Below the pieces are notes generated by a model. That model did not search any database and had not been told where the DNA came from. It was given only the letters and a program-made list of their open reading frames with translations. A stretch of DNA of 41,309 nt from an uncultured Rhodospirillales bacterium (GTDB taxonomy: Bacteria > Pseudomonadota > Alphaproteobacteria > Azospirillales > Azospirillaceae): positions 1 to 41,309 of the forward strand of contig CAIOBP010000003.1 in NCBI GenBank assembly GCA_903856295.1, read 5' to 3'. This document shows positions 5,416 through 41,309 of the stretch, one piece after another. A program made the position numbers and the translations under genes. How positions within the stretch are numbered: position 1 is the stretch's first letter; each line of letters begins with the position of its first letter.

Positions 5416-7026
5416 CTAAACCGGCAGCGTCTGCGGCCGCTTCCAGCGCAACCAACTCACCATCATCAAGCGCGCCAGCACGGTGGCGGTGAACATCGAG
5501 GTCAGGATGCCGAAGCTGATGGTGACCGCGAACCCCTTGACCGGTCCGGAGCCGAGAGCGAACAGCAGCAGCATCTTGATCAGCGTCGTCAGGTTGGCAT
5601 CGACGATGGTCGAAAACGCCCGCCTGAAACCGGCCTCCATGGCCGCGAACGGCGACTTGCCCTTGCGGGTTTCCTCACGGATGCGCTCGTTGATCAGAAT
5701 ATTGGCGTCCACCGACATGCCGAGGGTCAGCAGAATGCCAGCGAGACCGGGCAGGGTCAGTGTTGCCTGAAGGATCGAAAGCACGCCCAGGGTCAGGATC
5801 AGGTTGAACAACAGGGCGACGTTAGCCATCAAGCCAAAGAGACCATATGCCGCGGCCATGTAGGTGATGACCAGCAGAAAGCCGGCGATGATCGAGTAGA
5901 AACCGGCCTTGATGGCGTCGGCGCCAAGGTCCGGACCGATCGAGCGTTCCTCAATGATCGTCAGCGGCGCCGGCAGCGCGCCCGCTCGCAGCAGCACCGC
6001 GAGATCGTTGGCGCTCTGAGCGGTGAAATGGCCGCTGATCTGGCCGCGCCCGCCCAGAATCGGCTCGCGGATGACCGGGGCGCTGATCACCTTGTTGTCG
6101 AGCACGATCGCGAAGGGGCGCCCGACATTGGCCTTGGTGACCTCAGCGAAACGCCGGCCGCCGATCGAGTCGAACTCGAAATTGACGATCCACTCATTGG
6201 TCTGGCTGTTGGCGCCGGCGCGAGCATCGGTCAGGTTGCCGCCATCGACCTCGATGCGCTTGCGCACCAAGTGACGCGCCGGCCCCATCGAGCGACGGTC
6301 GACGTCGGTGCTGGGCAGAAGTTCGAAGCCCGGCGGCACCCGGCCGCTCGCCGCCTCGCTGTCGGACCCGAGCAGGCGGAAGGTCAGCTTGGCGGTCTGG
6401 CCCAGCAGGCGCTTGATGCGGTCAGGATCGTCGACACCGGGCAATTGCACCAGAATCCGGTTCTCGCCCTGACGGGCGATGGTCGGTTCGTTGACGCCGG
6501 TCTCGTCGATGCGACGGCGGATGATCTCGATCGACTGCTCGACCGCGCGGGCCGCCTTGTCGTGCAGCGCCGCCTCGACCAGGGTAATAACACCGTTGCC
6601 TTCGGGACTGATGTCGATCTGCAACTCGCTGATGCCACCGCCCAGCGCCGAACCGCCGACCGTGTTGGACAGGGTCTTGAGGTCCTTCAGCGCCGCCTCG
6701 CGGTCCTTGGGATCGCGCAGGGTGAAGGTCACCGACCGGTCGTCGTTGGTCAGGTTGACATACCCGATGTTGGCGGTGCGGAACTGGCCGCGCACCCCGT
6801 CCTGGAGCGACCCCAGCCGCTCCTTGACCACCGTCGGCATGTCGACCTCAAGCAGCAGGTACGAACCGCCGCGAAGATCGAGGCCAAGGTGAATCTGGCG
6901 ATGTGGGAGCCAGGGCGGCAGGCTGGCCGAGGTCTCGCGGCTGAGGAAGTTCGGCAGAGTGAAAACCAGCCCGGCCAAACACACACCAATGATCGTGTAG
7001 ACTTTCCAGCGAGCGAAGAAGAGCAT
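5416..7026 (-). CDS. secD: Protein translocase subunit SecD
   Basis: SecD (536 aa) forms the SecDF-YajC complex at the inner membrane. Visible features are an N-terminal transmembrane helix (KVYTIIGVCLAGLVFTLPNF), the LGLDLRGGSYLLLEVD signature, a large periplasmic P1 region, and a C-terminal six-helix domain with GMSVDANILINERIREE and the NLTTLIKMLLLF segment. All core motifs are intact and the length is standard. It follows yajC after 24 nt and precedes secF, the classic order. The long open frames on the opposite strand are GC-driven shadows. Confidence 0.97.
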   Translation of the reverse strand: MLFFARWKVYTIIGVCLAGLVFTLPNFLSRETSASLPPWLPHRQIHLGLDLRGGSYLLLEVDMPTVVKERLGSLQDGVRGQFRTANIGYVNLTNDDRSVTFTLRDPKDREAALKDLKTLSNTVGGSALGGGISELQIDISPEGNGVITLVEAALHDKAARAVEQSIEIIRRRIDETGVNEPTIARQGENRILVQLPGVDDPDRIKRLLGQTAKLTFRLLGSDSEAASGRVPPGFELLPSTDVDRRSMGPARHLVRKRIEVDGGNLTDARAGANSQTNEWIVNFEFDSIGGRRFAEVTKANVGRPFAIVLDNKVISAPVIREPILGGRGQISGHFTAQSANDLAVLLRAGALPAPLTIIEERSIGPDLGADAIKAGFYSIIAGFLLVITYMAAAYGLFGLMANVALLFNLILTLGVLSILQATLTLPGLAGILLTLGMSVDANILINERIREETRKGKSPFAAMEAGFRRAFSTIVDANLTTLIKMLLLFALGSGPVKGFAVTISFGILTSMFTATVLARLMMVSWLRWKRPQTLPV

Positions 7027-36186: not shown

Positions 36187-38004
36187 GTGAACGATAAGCC
36201 CAACGCCTACCGCGTCCTTGCCCGCAAATACCGTCCGACCACGTTCTCGGAACTGATCGGCCAGGACGCCCTCGTTCGCACGCTGACCAACGCCATGGCC
36301 TCGGGGCGCATCGCCCAGGCTTTCATGCTGACCGGGGTACGCGGAGTCGGCAAGACCACCACCGCCCGCATCGTCGCCCGCGCGCTCAATTGCATCGGCC
36401 CCGACGGCACCGGCGGCCCGACCATCGCGCCCTGCGGCGTCTGCGAGCCTTGCCAGGCGATCATCCAGGACCGGTTCGTCGACGTGCTGGAGATGGACGC
36501 CGCCTCCCATACCGGCGTCGACGACATTCGCGAAATCATCTCCGGGGTGCGCTACAGCCCGGTTTCGGCGCGCTACAAGCTCTACATCATCGACGAAGTG
36601 CACATGCTGTCCAAGAACGCCTTCAACGCCTTGTTGAAGACGCTGGAGGAACCGCCGAGCCATGTGAAGTTCATTTTCGCCACCACCGAAATCCGCAAGG
36701 TGCCGGTGACGGTGCTGTCGCGCTGCCAGCGCTTCGATTTGCGCCGGGTGTCGACTCCGGAACTGATCGGCCATTTCACCAAGGTCGCGGGGCTGGAGGG
36801 CGTCACCATCGAGCCCGACGCCGTGGCCCTGATCGCCCGCGCCGCCGATGGTTCGGTGCGCGACGGTCTCAGCCTGCTCGATCAGGCGATTGCCTTGGGC
36901 GGCGCCGCGGTCACGACCGAACAGGTCCGCGACATGCTGGGGCTGGCCGACCGCGCCGCGATCATCGATCTCTTCGAAGCGGCACTGACCGGCAAGCCGG
37001 CCCGCGCCCTGGAGATTCTCGCCGATCTGCACCGGGCCGGCGCCGACCCGCTGGTGGTGCTGCGCGATCTCCTGGACCTCACGCACTTCCTGACCCGCGC
37101 CAAAGTGGTGCCCGAGGTGCTGACCGACCCGACCACTCCCGAGGCCGAACGGTCGCGGGGCGGCGCTCTGGCCGGTGGCCTGACCGTGCCTTTATTGACC
37201 CGCGCCTGGCAACTGCTGCTCAAGGGCACCGGCGAGGCCATGAACGCGCCGGTGCCTCATCAGGCGGTGGAAATGGTGATCATCCGCCTCGCCTACGCCG
37301 CCGATCTGCCGACGCCCTCCGATCTGATCCGCCAATTGCCCGGACGGGCTCCCGGAGGCGCCGCTCTCGCACCGGTTTCCGGAGGCGGCCCCACCGGCGG
37401 CGCGGCCGCTCGCGGACCGGCATCCGGCGTCATGGCATCGGCCGCCCTCACGGCGATTGGCGGTGGCGCTTCGGCACATGCCGCCCGGGCTCAGTTGCGC
37501 GCTCCGCAGCCGGCCGCGTTCGCCGTTCCCGAGCCCTCGGCCGCTCTTCAGGCCGGCCCGGCCCACGAGTTCCGCGCCCTGGTCCAGTTGTTCGCCGAGC
37601 ATCACGAGGGCATGCTGTTCGCCCACCTTTACCGCTCGGCGCATCTGGTCCGGATCGAGCCGGGGCTGCTGGAACTCCGGCCGGAACCGACGGCGCCGCG
37701 GGATCTGGTCAACCGCGTCGGACCACTGCTCAGCGAATGGACCGGCCGGCGCTGGACGGTGGTGGCCAGCTTCGAGTCGCCCGGCCAGCCGACGCTCCAG
37801 GAACAGGACGACGAGGCCAAAGCCCGAGCTCTGAGGGAAATCGAAGCCCATCCGTTGGTGCGGGCGGTGCTCGAAGCCTTTCCCGGCGCGCGCATCAACA
37901 AGGATATTCGCGACACCACCCCGGTCACCGCCACCGAAGACGAGTCGGCGCAGTCCGACTCGCCCCCCGACCCTTACGAGGACGAAGGAGAGTTCGATCT
38001 ATGA
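36187..38004 (+). CDS. dnaX: DNA polymerase III subunit gamma/tau
   Basis: DnaX (605 aa) is the motor of the clamp loader and links the two polymerase cores. The N-terminal AAA+ domain has the P-loop GVRGVGKTTTAR (from about residue 50) and a four-Cys zinc module (Cys69, Cys83, Cys86, Cys89 in CGVCEPCQ). YIIDEVHMLSKNAFNALLKT with LEEPPSHVKFIFATTE, and the sensor SRCQRFDLRR, follow. The tail is Pro/Ala-rich with a tau-like C-terminal domain and an acidic end. GTG 36187 begins the conserved NAYRVLARKYRPTTF; the frame upstream runs through the SRP RNA and is rejected. The stop overlaps the ybaB ATG (ATGA). Confidence 0.96.
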   Translation: MNDKPNAYRVLARKYRPTTFSELIGQDALVRTLTNAMASGRIAQAFMLTGVRGVGKTTTARIVARALNCIGPDGTGGPTIAPCGVCEPCQAIIQDRFVDVLEMDAASHTGVDDIREIISGVRYSPVSARYKLYIIDEVHMLSKNAFNALLKTLEEPPSHVKFIFATTEIRKVPVTVLSRCQRFDLRRVSTPELIGHFTKVAGLEGVTIEPDAVALIARAADGSVRDGLSLLDQAIALGGAAVTTEQVRDMLGLADRAAIIDLFEAALTGKPARALEILADLHRAGADPLVVLRDLLDLTHFLTRAKVVPEVLTDPTTPEAERSRGGALAGGLTVPLLTRAWQLLLKGTGEAMNAPVPHQAVEMVIIRLAYAADLPTPSDLIRQLPGRAPGGAALAPVSGGGPTGGAAARGPASGVMASAALTAIGGGASAHAARAQLRAPQPAAFAVPEPSAALQAGPAHEFRALVQLFAEHHEGMLFAHLYRSAHLVRIEPGLLELRPEPTAPRDLVNRVGPLLSEWTGRRWTVVASFESPGQPTLQEQDDEAKARALREIEAHPLVRAVLEAFPGARINKDIRDTTPVTATEDESAQSDSPPDPYEDEGEFDL

Positions 38005-38324
38005 AGAACCTTGGCAACATGCTGAAACAAGCCCAGCAGATGCAGACCAAAATGGCCGAAATGCAGGATCGCCTGGGCGACATCGAGTTGGTCGGGCAGT
38101 CGGGCGCCGGCATGGTCCAGATCACCGTCAACGCCAAGGGTGAAATGAAGCGGGTCAAGCTGGCCAAGGAAGTCGTTGATCCCACGGACGTCGAAGTGCT
38201 GGAAGACCTGATCGTCGCTGCCTTCAACGACGCCAAATCCAGAATCGACGGCGTGGTCGCCGAGGAAACCCAGAAGCTGATGGGCGGGCTGAAGCTGCCG
38301 CCGGGCATGAAACTGCCGTTCTGA
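38001..38324 (+). CDS. ybaB: YbaB/EbfC family nucleoid-associated protein
   Basis: This 107-aa dimeric DNA-binding protein begins MKNLGNMLKQAQQMQTKMAE, the standard helix. It continues with GAGMVQITVNAKGEMKRVKL and DLIVAAFNDAKSRID, then a Gly/Leu/Pro-rich C-terminus (GGLKLPPGMKLPF). It is coupled to dnaX by a 4-nt overlap, as in most bacteria. Usually recR follows; here the next gene is dnaN. Confidence 0.95.
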   Translation: MKNLGNMLKQAQQMQTKMAEMQDRLGDIELVGQSGAGMVQITVNAKGEMKRVKLAKEVVDPTDVEVLEDLIVAAFNDAKSRIDGVVAEETQKLMGGLKLPPGMKLPF

Positions 38325-38362
38325 AGTGTCGGCGGTGCGGCATCGTTGCACCGCAAAATCGC

Positions 38363-38390
38363 TTCGGTGGAGACGCGGGCGTGCTATAGT
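38363..38390 (+). promoter_or_regulatory. Candidate promoter of dnaN
   Basis: TATAGT (38385-38390) is a good -10 element, 32 nt before the dnaN ATG. The -35 (TTCGGT at 38363-38368, spacing 16) is weak. It lies in the gap between ybaB and dnaN. Confidence 0.4.
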
Positions 38391-38422
38391 GCGCGCCCGT
38401 TCAGCGCCCGCAGAAGATAGTC

Positions 38423-39556
38423 ATGAACATCACCATCGAACGCGCCGCCCTCCTCCGCTCCCTCGGACACATCCAAAGCGTTGTCGAACGCCGGAGCACC
38501 ATTCCCGTGCTCGCCAACGTTCTGTTGAAGGCCCATGGCTCCGAGTTGTCGCTGGCCGCGACCGACATGGACCTGGAGATCGTCGAGGACGTACCAGCGG
38601 TGGTGACGCGGCCGGGAACGACCACCGCCCCTGCCCATACCCTCTATGAAATCGTGCGCAAGCTGCCCGATGGCGCCCAAGTCGAACTGGATTGCGATGC
38701 CGGGGCGTCATTGCTGACGCTGCGCTCGGGGCGGTCCCAGTTCAAGCTGGGCTGCCTGCCCGCCGACGATTTTCCGCAGCTCACCGGCTCCGGCTTCACC
38801 CACAAGTTCACGCTCCCGGCCGCCGATCTCAGGGCGCTGGTCGACCGCACCCGATTCGCGATCTCCACCGAGGAGACCCGCTATTACCTCAACGGCATTT
38901 ACGTCCATGCCGGCCGCGCCGTGATCGGCAGCGGCCCCGAGGTTTCGGTGCTGCGCGCCGTGGCCACCGACGGCCATCGCCTCGCCCGCATCGAACTGCC
39001 CCTGCCCGAGGGCGCCGCCGGAATGCCGGGGGTGATCATTCCGCGCAAGACCGTGGGTGAGATTCGCAAGCTGATCGACGAGGCGGCGGCCGGCATCGAG
39101 GTTTCCCTTTCGGAAACCAAAATCCGCGTCGCTTTCGATTCGATCGCGGTGACCTCGAAGCTGATCGACGGCACCTTTCCCGACTATGAGCGGGTGATCC
39201 CGGTCGGTAATGACAAGATCATGGAGGTCAAGGCCAAGCCCTTCGCCGCCGCCGTCGACCGCGTCGCCACCATTTCCACCGAGAAGAGCCGGGCGGTGAA
39301 ACTGGTGATTCACCGCGACACCCTCACCCTCTCGGCCACCAGTCCGGAAGCGGGCAGCGCCACCGAGGAAATCGAGGTGCAATACAGCGGCCCGCCACTG
39401 GAAATCGGCTTCAACTCCCGCTACCTGCTCGACATCGTCCAGCAGATCGAAAGCGGCGACGCCCGCTTCATCATGGCCGACGCCGCCGCGCCATCCATCG
39501 TCCGCGACATCGCCGTCGGCGGCGCCCTTTTCGTGCTGATGCCGATGCGGGTGTGA
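38423..39556 (+). CDS. dnaN: DNA polymerase III beta subunit (sliding clamp)
   Basis: The 377-aa protein forms the ring that tethers DNA polymerase to its template. All three clamp domains are present: N-terminal MNITIERAALLRSLGHIQSV with VERRSTIPVLANVLL, the middle domain with ISTEETRYYLNGIYVH and AVATDGHRLARIELPLPEG, and the C-terminal LIDGTFPDYERVIP with the end FVLMPMRV (the MPMRV end is a clamp hallmark). The length is usual. It follows ybaB rather than dnaA, so the clamp and clamp-loader genes are neighbours here. Confidence 0.97.
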   Translation: MNITIERAALLRSLGHIQSVVERRSTIPVLANVLLKAHGSELSLAATDMDLEIVEDVPAVVTRPGTTTAPAHTLYEIVRKLPDGAQVELDCDAGASLLTLRSGRSQFKLGCLPADDFPQLTGSGFTHKFTLPAADLRALVDRTRFAISTEETRYYLNGIYVHAGRAVIGSGPEVSVLRAVATDGHRLARIELPLPEGAAGMPGVIIPRKTVGEIRKLIDEAAAGIEVSLSETKIRVAFDSIAVTSKLIDGTFPDYERVIPVGNDKIMEVKAKPFAAAVDRVATISTEKSRAVKLVIHRDTLTLSATSPEAGSATEEIEVQYSGPPLEIGFNSRYLLDIVQQIESGDARFIMADAAAPSIVRDIAVGGALFVLMPMRV

Positions 39557-39603
39557 CGGTTGACGGGGTATGCTGGAGTCCGCGAACGCACGAGGGCAAG
39601 GTC

Positions 39604-39828
39604 ATGACTGAATTGCTCCAAACTGCCTTCAATCGTCTGTCGCAGTTGCCGCCTGAGCGTCAGGACGCGCTGGCGCGCGAAATCCTCGCCGACCTTGAAG
39701 ACGAGGACCGATGGGATGCCACGTTCTCCCGCTCCGGGGCACTGCTGGATCGGCTTGCCGACGAGGCGGAAATGGAGATCACGTCTGGCACAACCCGCCC
39801 CGGCGACCCGGGGCATGAGACCGTGTGA
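39604..39828 (+). CDS. Putative antitoxin of a type II toxin-antitoxin pair
   Basis: The 74-aa protein starts MTELLQTAFNRLSQLPPERQ, a helical segment common to antitoxins placed before RelE/ParE-type toxins. It continues with DALAREILADLEDEDRWDAT and an acidic, unstructured tail. No classic DNA-binding motif is seen. ATG 39604 has an AAGG site 3-4 nt upstream; the longer frame starting at 39553 inside dnaN is rejected. Its stop overlaps the toxin GTG (GTGTGA), so translation is coupled. Confidence 0.7.
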   Translation: MTELLQTAFNRLSQLPPERQDALAREILADLEDEDRWDATFSRSGALLDRLADEAEMEITSGTTRPGDPGHETV

Positions 39829-40088
39829 AGTCCTTCACCACCAGCCGGTTCCGTGACCTCTACGCGGCGTTGCCAGAGGATGTGCGGGCAGCGGCGCGGG
39901 AGAGCTATCAGCACTGGCGCCTGGACGCCGGACACCCGGGATTAAGGTTCAAACCGGTCCATCCGTCCCGGCCGATCTGGTCGGTCCGCATTGGCCGGGG
40001 CTGGCGAGCCCTGCGCTTGCGCAAGGATGACGGCATCACATGGTTCTGGATCGGCTCCCATGCCGATTACGATCGCTTGCTGGGTTGA
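39825..40088 (+). CDS. RelE/ParE-superfamily-like toxin
   Basis: The 87-aa basic protein begins MKSFTTSRFRDLYAALPEDV and has the short alpha/beta pattern of RelE/ParE-fold toxins: an N-terminal strand, two helices (VRAAARESYQHWRLDAGHPG), then strands WSVRIGRGWRALRLRKDDGI and TWFWIGSHADYDRLL. The final SHADYDRLL end matches the usual 'G-x-H-x-x-Y-x-x-L' of this fold. Such toxins cut mRNA on the ribosome or poison gyrase; which one applies is not clear. It overlaps the antitoxin gene and lies just outside the tRNA fragment. Confidence 0.72.
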   Translation: MKSFTTSRFRDLYAALPEDVRAAARESYQHWRLDAGHPGLRFKPVHPSRPIWSVRIGRGWRALRLRKDDGITWFWIGSHADYDRLLG

Positions 40089-40173
40089 ACGGCCGGTACC
40101 GGCGCGCCACGGAAGGCGTGCCCCCCAAAAACCAGCCCTGACCTGACTCTTATACATGAGAAGTTGGTGAGGA

Positions 40174-40223
40174 TGGTGGGCGCGACAGGGATTGAACCTG
40201 TGACCCCTGCGATGTCAACACAG
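40174..40223 (-). other. 3' fragment of tRNA-Val(GAC), likely attachment site (att)
   Basis: Read on the minus strand, the 50 nt fold into an anticodon arm CTGTG-TTGACAT-CGCAG (anticodon GAC), a variable loop, a T arm ACAGG-TTCAATC-CCTGT, the acceptor 3' strand CGCGCCC, a discriminator A and CCA. The D arm and the 5' acceptor strand are missing; upstream sequence is AT-rich and unrelated. Tyrosine integrases recombine in tRNA 3' halves, often from the anticodon loop, leaving such a fragment on the far end. The element would extend to higher coordinates. The complete tRNA gene is not in the window. Confidence 0.8.
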
Positions 40224-40314
40224 TTACTATTTAATAAAAACATCGCATTATAGATACAACCGAACGCAACTTCCGCTAATTGATTCCTACGGAATCAGCC
40301 ATGTAGGCAGCTGG

Positions 40315-40341
40315 TGCGTTTGATCTGCGTTCTAGTGCGTT
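40315..40341. repeat. Three TGCGTT motifs at helical spacing
   Basis: TGCGTT occurs at 40315-40320, 40326-40331 and 40336-40341, starts 11 and 10 bp apart, with the reverse form AACGCA at 40263-40268. They are 90-165 bp inside the tRNA fragment, where integrase arm-type or excisionase sites are often found. Confidence 0.4.
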
Positions 40342-40392
40342 TTAGGAACGGATGTGAACGCCGCCACCCTGTCTCAGTTCCCTGAGTGCAAA

Positions 40393-40428
40393 ATTCATCC
40401 CGCCAAGCCGAAGCTTGACGGGATGAAT
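40393..40428 (-). terminator. Long hairpin downstream of the phage-like gene
   Basis: ATTCATCCCG pairs with CGGGATGAAT (10 bp); after one mismatch CAAGC pairs with GCTTG around loop CGAA. It sits 20 nt past the stop of the minus-strand gene ending at 40448 and is followed on that strand by TTTGCAC, a short T-run. Confidence 0.6.
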
Positions 40429-40447
40429 ATCCGTGAGGGTAACCGGA

Positions 40448-41077
40448 TCAAGTCTGCGGTGCGGCCGGCCGGTTGGCCCTCGCCGCCGCGCAGCCGGCGC
40501 TGAGGCTACGATAAAGGTCGGCCGCCGCCGCCTCGGTCGCCGGAATGGCCTTACTGCCGGTCAGGGCGACGAGGCCGATGACCGCCGGAGCGATGCTCTG
40601 GCCGGCAGCGGCGGCTTGATCGACCATGTCGCAGGCATGGGCGATGCCGGCATTGAGCTGCTGGGCGGCTGCCTCGACCCGCTCAGCTCCCGCCGCCACC
40701 TTGGCATCGAGAGCGGCCAGACCGCTACAGGCCGTCATCAGCGGCACCGACAGCAAGGCGGCCAGCAGTAGCGCCAGACGCCCCCCCGAAGACGTCGGGG
40801 GAGACCACCCGAGCAGCTGCGCGGCGACCGCCGACTCGGAAGCCGCCGTCGAGAGATCGCCCCGGCTCGCCGCCTCGAAGGCGGTTTTGGCGGCGGCAGC
40901 GGCGTCGGGATGGGCCTTGGCATTTTGGCCGACCAGAGCCAGCAGCTCAATCACGCGGTAGCCCAGGCGCTGCCACGCCGGGGCATCGGCGCCCGGAGTC
41001 GGAATGATGTTGGTGAGCAGCGAGGCCCCGGTCACCAGGGCGGTGACAAGGGTAAACCAATCGATAGAGGTCAACAT
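40448..41077 (-). CDS. Phage-like membrane protein with internal lipobox (possible two-gene fusion)
   Basis: The 209-aa frame starts MLTSIDWFTLVTALVTGASL with an ideal AAGGAG site 6 nt before ATG 41077. The first ~75 residues hold a weak N-terminal membrane helix and LGYRVIELLALVGQNAKAH. From about residue 98 a second hydrophobic stretch (LALLLAALLSVPLMTAC) ends in a perfect lipobox at Cys117, followed by an Ala/Glu-rich helical part. A run of seven G precedes the lipobox segment; with six G the frame would split into a first protein ending at 40738 and a lipoprotein starting at an overlapping GTG. I infer a lysis- or envelope-linked phage gene; the family is not recognised. Confidence 0.5.
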   Translation of the reverse strand: MLTSIDWFTLVTALVTGASLLTNIIPTPGADAPAWQRLGYRVIELLALVGQNAKAHPDAAAAAKTAFEAASRGDLSTAASESAVAAQLLGWSPPTSSGGRLALLLAALLSVPLMTACSGLAALDAKVAAGAERVEAAAQQLNAGIAHACDMVDQAAAAGQSIAPAVIGLVALTGSKAIPATEAAAADLYRSLSAGCAAARANRPAAPQT

Positions 41078-41097
41078 GATGAGCTCCTTTCGAGCAC

Positions 41098-41126
41098 AAA
41101 AAAACCGCCGGGCAATGCCTCGGCGG
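41098..41126 (-). terminator. Rho-independent terminator of the gene at the right edge
   Basis: On the minus strand, CCGCCG-A-GGC pairs with GCC-CGGCGG around loop ATT (one bulged base), followed directly by seven T. It lies 28 nt after the stop of the partial gene at 41155. Confidence 0.8.
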
Positions 41127-41154
41127 ACGGGTGATGGGGATTGGTGCAGTCAGG

Positions 41155-41309
41155 CTATTTCGGCAGCACCACTTTGCCGGTCAGGAACAGGGTGCGCTCG
41201 CAGGCCCGGTTTGTGCATACTAGCTTCTGTAAATTAATTGCTTGCTGATACTGCGCAGCCGGGCCTCCCGGAGTGATGAGGACGCGTAAGCGTCCGAAGA
41301 ACGGAGGGA
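41155..41309 (-). CDS. C-terminal end of an unidentified protein (runs off the right edge)
   Basis: A minus-strand frame without start is open from the window edge to TAG (41157-41155) and gives about 51 residues, including PPFFGRLRVLITPGGPAAQY and LVCTNRACERTLFLTGKVVL then PK. Two Cys spaced by four residues are visible. The amino-acid pattern is protein-like, and a strong terminator follows, both of which support a real gene. It shares direction with the phage-like gene downstream. No family is recognised; a phage structural or hypothetical protein is the best guess from context. Confidence 0.5.
   Translation of the reverse strand, partial: PPFFGRLRVLITPGGPAAQYQQAINLQKLVCTNRACERTLFLTGKVVLPK

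Follow-up and report, generated by a model that had tools for sequence, protein, structure and literature searches.

Very probably, a mobile element has split the native tRNA-Val(GAC) gene of this bacterium, restored it at neither junction, and brought with it a complete spare copy. The genome contains two halves of a tRNA gene with a common core, a complete spare gene and an integrase gene, and no other intact tRNA-Val(GAC) gene was found. A tyrosine integrase would have recombined a 21-bp attP core with the anticodon stem-loop of the host tRNA-Val(GAC), breaking the native gene so that its 3' half would now lie in the window (the whole 41,309-bp stretch analyzed) and its 5' half on a second contig, C236, while the element's own tRNA-Val(GAC), located between the integrase and the core, would keep the lysogen supplied. 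The spare, which is presumably expressed and needed, is best understood as standing in for a native gene that remains broken, and the arrangement appears to match tRNA-dependent lysogeny. The result is a bacterium whose only detected tRNA-Val(GAC) gene apparently belongs to a mobile element. The features on which this reading draws are collected in Table 1.

Table 1. Features of the window and of contig C236 at the tRNA-Val(GAC) junctions
Feature	Location	Strand	Basis
Host flank: dnaN, DNA polymerase III beta subunit	window 38423..39556	+	Pfam
Host flank: small ORF, no Pfam match	window 39604-39828	+	antitoxin role from position
Host flank: ParE-like toxin ORF	window 39825-40088	+	Pfam ParE_like 3.7e-10
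3' part of probable native host tRNA-Val(GAC) gene, anticodon arm to CCA	window 40174..40224	-	sequence, BLAST, ARAGORN-accepted join with C236 6588 onward
Proposed 21-bp attachment core, anticodon stem-loop, contains TTGACA	window 40204..40224	-	identical to C236 6588-6608
AT-rich element arm with four candidate arm-type sites	window 40225..40345		motif picked after looking
First long element ORF at window end, 209 aa	window 40448..41077	-	ORF list
Multi-copy repeat closing the contig	window 41209..41309		25 genome matches, itself included
Excisionase-like ORF	C236 4460-4891		PHROG E 1.6e-4
Tyrosine integrase	C236 4642-5847		Pfam Phage_integrase 2.2e-11, PHROG integrase 1.3e-28
Complete tRNA-Val(GAC), spare copy	C236 6413-6487	-	Rfam tRNA model, 68.1 bits
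5' half of second tRNA-Val(GAC), beginning with the core	C236 6588 onward (core 6588-6608)		exact match

The window is the entirety of contig C3 in a 4.02-Mb draft genome of 255 contigs that is 98.97% complete. Positions 40174-40224 of its minus strand read ACTGTGTTGACATCGCAGGGGTCACAGGTTCAATCCCTGTCGCGCCCACCA, comprising an anticodon arm with the anticodon GAC, a T arm, the 3' acceptor strand and CCA. When the junction was compared by BLAST with its own genome, it matched a tRNA-Val(GAC) gene (98% over 53 nt, E 1.2e-19), so the likeness of the fragment to a tRNA is not due to chance. The partial tRNA-Val(GAC), from the anticodon arm to CCA, that a sequence-only reading had reported at 40174-40223 is real, and its placement was right to within one base: identity with the native gene stops at 40224. 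ARAGORN detected no complete tRNA in the window, and positions 38000-41309 contain no Rfam tRNA match at E ≤ 1, as expected since the tRNA there is a fragment. Immediately to the right the composition shifts abruptly toward AT (45% GC over 177 bp versus 64% for the window), in agreement with the same reading's proposals that AT-rich DNA has replaced the D arm and 5' end and that an element extends from about 40224 past the right edge; its start is placed here at about 40225, and it does run off the contig.

The first long ORF of the element has no family in Pfam or NCBIfam and only weak matches in PHROGs (best E 0.014). Both ends of the window are multi-copy repeats (1-137, with 39 matches in the genome, and 41209-41309, with 25), probably insertion sequences at which the assembly broke off. 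A likely toxin-antitoxin pair (39604..40088) occupies the interval from dnaN to the split tRNA; its ParE-like toxin ORF matched nothing in NCBIfam, and the antitoxin is assigned by position only.

A search of the genome with the window junction led to contig C236 (9,035 bp), on which a DNA methyltransferase gene is followed by the excisionase-like ORF, the tyrosine integrase, two small ORFs, the complete tRNA-Val(GAC), an arm, a tRNA 5' half, and a host gene for a PPK2-family polyphosphate kinase (Pfam). The complete tRNA and the 5' half are separated by 100 bp of 45% GC DNA. The phage-type matches on C236 (PHROG) are to the integrase, the excisionase-like protein and the DNA methyltransferase; no structural phage gene was seen on the assembled ends of the element, the middle of which is not assembled. 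The two contigs are not joined, each terminating in a repeat that the genome has in many copies (25 and 39 matches). The window and C236 most likely represent the two ends of one element, probably a prophage. The earlier proposal of a tyrosine-integrase element accordingly gains its integrase on C236, and the search it suggested yielded both an integrase and a full tRNA-Val(GAC) on that contig. It had also predicted that the element would end at this complete gene, which appears not to be the restored attachment partner: the partner of the window half is most likely the 5' half with its 21-bp core. The C236 flank shows loose synteny with relatives: PPK2 and tRNA-Val(GAC) lie 3.7 kb apart in the same orientation in one of them (G001), and never on one locus in the four other PPK2-bearing relatives with fetched loci. 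The dnaN and toxin-antitoxin genes of the window flank were not found in the 11 loci fetched from relatives.

The 5' half on C236 and the 3' half in the window overlap by exactly 21 bp, the anticodon stem-loop, and joined at this core they form a tRNA accepted by ARAGORN, with a leader and trailer (TGAGGAT/ATCCTCA) able to pair. Both halves contain the anticodon stem CTGTG/CGCAG, which is found in none of 12 relatives and is not in the spare. The join, the pairing leader and trailer, and the shared stem indicate that the two halves most likely derive from one native gene; the empty site rebuilt from both flanks is a tRNA-Val(GAC) gene, with attB inside it. With a core of 21 bp, neither junction regains a whole tRNA: the window half has no Rfam match, and the C236 5' half scores 26.4 bits with the Rfam tRNA model (threshold 29; 68.1 for the complete copy), running into the core and then the element arm with no tRNA 3' half there. 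The layout of an ordinary element (host 5' half joined to an element 3' half at one junction, and a 3' half at the other) is not found here. Simple insertion into tandem host tRNA genes was considered and rejected, as a complete tRNA between the 5' half and the integrase fits no such insertion.

Of the 75 positions of the spare, 4 do not agree with the joined native gene; three of these fall in the core and the fourth in the D loop. Its 75 nt are identical to genes of other genera in the family (G012, G006, G034 and G082), and acquisition from another genus was rejected because the adjoining leader and trailer match the native gene only, being found in none of the 12 relatives. For the same reason a close relative of the host is the favored, if not proven, source of the captured gene. 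Under the split model the spare itself lies 100 bp within the element.

Candidate arm-type integrase sites fit the proposed position of the core. The motif TGCGTT(T/C), chosen after the sequence had been seen, occurs on the window side at 40262 (inverted), 40315, 40326 and 40336, within about 80 bp, and twice on C236 between the core and the spare tRNA, against a background of eight occurrences in the first 40 kb of the window. The other copies on C236 are at 1760 and 5033, and none lies between the integrase and the spare. A 10-mer shared between the two arms was also tried as proof, but the test is weak: such a 10-mer turned up in 111 of 5000 pairs of shuffled arms and in 500 of about 5000 pairs drawn at random from the window. 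The argument therefore uses motif clustering. The split reading is favored because candidate sites flank the core on both contigs.

The same placement argues against the complete tRNA as the attachment site, and so against the foremost alternative, ordinary restoring integration, in which the complete tRNA on C236 would have been rebuilt, the window copy would have arisen as a duplicate of the 3' half, and the 5' half on C236 would be an unrelated relic of a second, neighboring tRNA gene. Such an event finds some encouragement in the orientation of the complete tRNA, whose 3' end faces the integrase like the restored junctions of relatives, and in the presence of two tRNA-Val(GAC) genes within about 320 bp in G102 and G014, of another genus of the family. 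It would also demand that the relic stop exactly where the window half starts, overlap it by 21 bp and share its rare stem, and exchange at the anticodon loop would, by reasoning, imply a pre-integration stem of CTACG/CGCAG with an A-C mismatch; restoring integration is therefore considered unlikely. Far less probable still is the action of two elements, a first that split the native gene and brought the spare, and a second, with the present integrase, that entered the spare in the ordinary manner: the group to which the integrase belongs does keep the 3' half of tRNA-Val(GAC), but an additional 3' half of the spare type is predicted and none was found in the genome, which at 98.97% completeness could have missed one. 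A chimeric join at the tRNA core is the least credible explanation, for even in a 255-contig draft with many repeat-broken ends, each junction enters its own AT-rich arm with similar candidate motifs, the halves combine into a single tRNA whose leader and trailer can pair, and a mechanism with this arrangement has been published.

A pattern search for the 3' half of valine tRNAs identified five places in the genome: for GAC the split window copy and the C236 gene, for CAC a gene and a 3' half, and for UAC a single gene. By this pattern and by BLAST, no intact tRNA-Val(GAC) gene other than the C236 copy was found in the genome, of which a 98.97% complete assembly may have missed one. On that assembly the disrupted gene appears not to be redundant, and the host probably depends on the element for tRNA-Val(GAC). 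Among the 216 valine codons of five long ORFs presumed to be host genes (PPK2 and four in the window), 117 are GUC or GUU, so that loss of this tRNA should be costly; tRNA-Val(UAC) may read some of these codons. One complete tRNA-Val(GAC) gene per genome was found in the 12 relatives, based on the 30 of 46 BLAST matches that were made into loci and typed; the other 16 comprise 15 at 74-78% and one 27-nt piece. Two were found in five of nine genomes of a second set (G102, G014, G083, G064 and G066) picked for carrying relatives of the integrase. A single gene is the usual state among the 12 relatives, not throughout the family.

Relatives of the integrase give a before-and-after comparison. A search of 145 genomes located the integrase or a relative of it at 12 places in 11 genomes, its own included, and 82 genomes of the order (E 1e-45) added no further place. 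At seven of the 11 other places there are a complete tRNA and a 3' half, both on the integrase contig in G083, G064, G014:C2, G082, G102 and G109 (in G109 the two flank the integrase, the nearer at a distance of about 16 kb), and with the half on another contig in G101; the remaining four places are G066, G014:C1, G085 and G097. Rfam detected four complete tRNAs (L031, L033, L076 and L077) and no partial one at six integrase loci, and L032 has a very short (21-nt) 3' piece of tRNA(CAT). Phage records contain only seven relatives of the integrase, all under 60% identity, and scans found one in viral contigs and two, from a Henriciella sp. and an uncultured alphaproteobacterium, in genome contigs. 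The viral contig, from IMG/VR (L075), encodes a 49% identical integrase beside 45 nt of a tRNA-Val(GAC) 3' half.

In a tree of 14 integrases (midpoint rooted for drawing only, and without L077, which has no matching ORF over 150 aa), the C236 integrase forms a group (support 98/96) with those of G102:C62, G082:C9 and the IMG/VR contig, and is sister to these three, which are 45-49% identical to it. All are found at tRNA-Val(GAC), and the split reading is favored also because the three closest integrases share this target. The five members of a second clade use a CAT tRNA, and four of them are restoring. The three sister sites resemble C236 in the tRNA used and in a 5' boundary of the match within the anticodon arm, but they keep 45-50 nt up to the CCA end, whereas the C236 core is 21 bp; G082 and G102 have a complete tRNA at one junction, and a split gene with a spare was not seen at any of the three. 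The similar 5' boundary, with the 3' side reduced from 45-50 nt to 21 bp, suggests by parsimony, from few taxa, that the C236 lineage had a restoring ancestor and took to splitting and replacement later. Its core would then have shrunk from 45-50 nt to 21 bp, at an unchanged target, once a complete tRNA was carried.

tRNA-dependent lysogeny was described in 2024 for Fionnbharth, Gaia and other actinobacteriophages (PMC10865867). In the parts of that paper drawn upon here, the phages infect Mycobacterium and Gordonia and use cores of 8-17 bp in Lys, Ile2 and Leu tRNAs; Table 2 there, in conflict with the paper's text, lists Omega (core 44) among the tRNA-dependent phages too, and the discussion mentions the Lactobacillus prophage Lj965. 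Common to those cases and the C236 element are a tyrosine integrase, attB in a tRNA gene, a short core that does not rebuild it, an element tRNA of the same isotype, and canonical relatives with longer cores. The present case differs in the alphaproteobacterial family of its host, in the use of tRNA-Val(GAC), and in the location of the spare 100 bp from the core. Its core of 21 bp, compared with 8-17 bp in the phages, is a reason for caution about the split reading, as are the unjoined contigs. A requirement for survival defines the published cases (PMC10865867); for the present lysogen such a requirement is a prediction from sequence. The authors regarded the evolutionary relation to restoring integration as not clear and the spread beyond actinobacteriophages as needing study (PMC10865867). 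According to the portions of two further reports used here, a prophage of Sinorhizobium meliloti replaces tRNA-Leu(UAG) (PMC11476347), and the phenomenon is not seen in phiLM21-like prophages (PMC12429752). The S. meliloti case is likewise one of an alphaproteobacterial host, a tRNA gene inactivated by integration and a phage-related replacement; it involves a different tRNA, and its replacement resembles genes of distant species (PMC11476347), whereas the leader and trailer of the present spare match the host gene. No tRNA-Val case of tRNA-dependent lysogeny was encountered in literature titles and the openings of abstracts.

Tentatively, the core may double as part of a promoter for the spare tRNA, from which transcription would enter the spare after about 80 nt. 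A sigma-70 scan of C236 5800-6800 gave two sites (mean of 0.6 in shuffled sequences), including TTGACA-17-CATAAT (11 of 12 matches) on the strand reading into the spare. Its perfect -35 box is the anticodon loop of the split tRNA and its -10 box lies in the element arm, and it is the sole site with at least 8 matches on its strand in C236 6488-6660. A -10 box as good at a spacing of 16-18 nt arose in 67 of 10,000 dinucleotide shuffles of the arm, a figure to be read with the overlap of core and promoter having been noticed after the fact. The intact host gene has no such -10 box after TTGACA, and no promoter of equal score was found at the native 3' half, the complete copy or the IMG/VR site. 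If the overlap is functional, integrase on the core could block the spare until integration is complete, tying tRNA supply to the state of the attachment site. The tRNA of Fionnbharth has its own promoter, demonstrated with a reporter in the part of the study consulted (PMC10865867).

Other valine tRNA genes may bear marks of insertion. In the same genome, a complete tRNA-Val(CAC) on contig C194 (33459-33545) and a copy of its 3' half on C221 (770-833) have the appearance of opposite ends of one element that restores its tRNA in the ordinary way. A relative of the same genus (G002:C302) has tRNA-Val(GAC) (L045, 1497-1571) with a degenerate copy of the 3' half 2.4 kb downstream (L059, 1501-1554) and a membrane-protein-like ORF between them; the degenerate half is perhaps a relic of another insertion at this gene. 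Two genomes of another genus contain a Val(GAC)-Asp(GTC)-Val(GAC) cluster (L121, 5982-6276; L122, 4281-4673). The acceptor stem of the second Val gene in L121 is altered, and next to that gene lies a 7.6-kb element carrying a relative of the C236 integrase.
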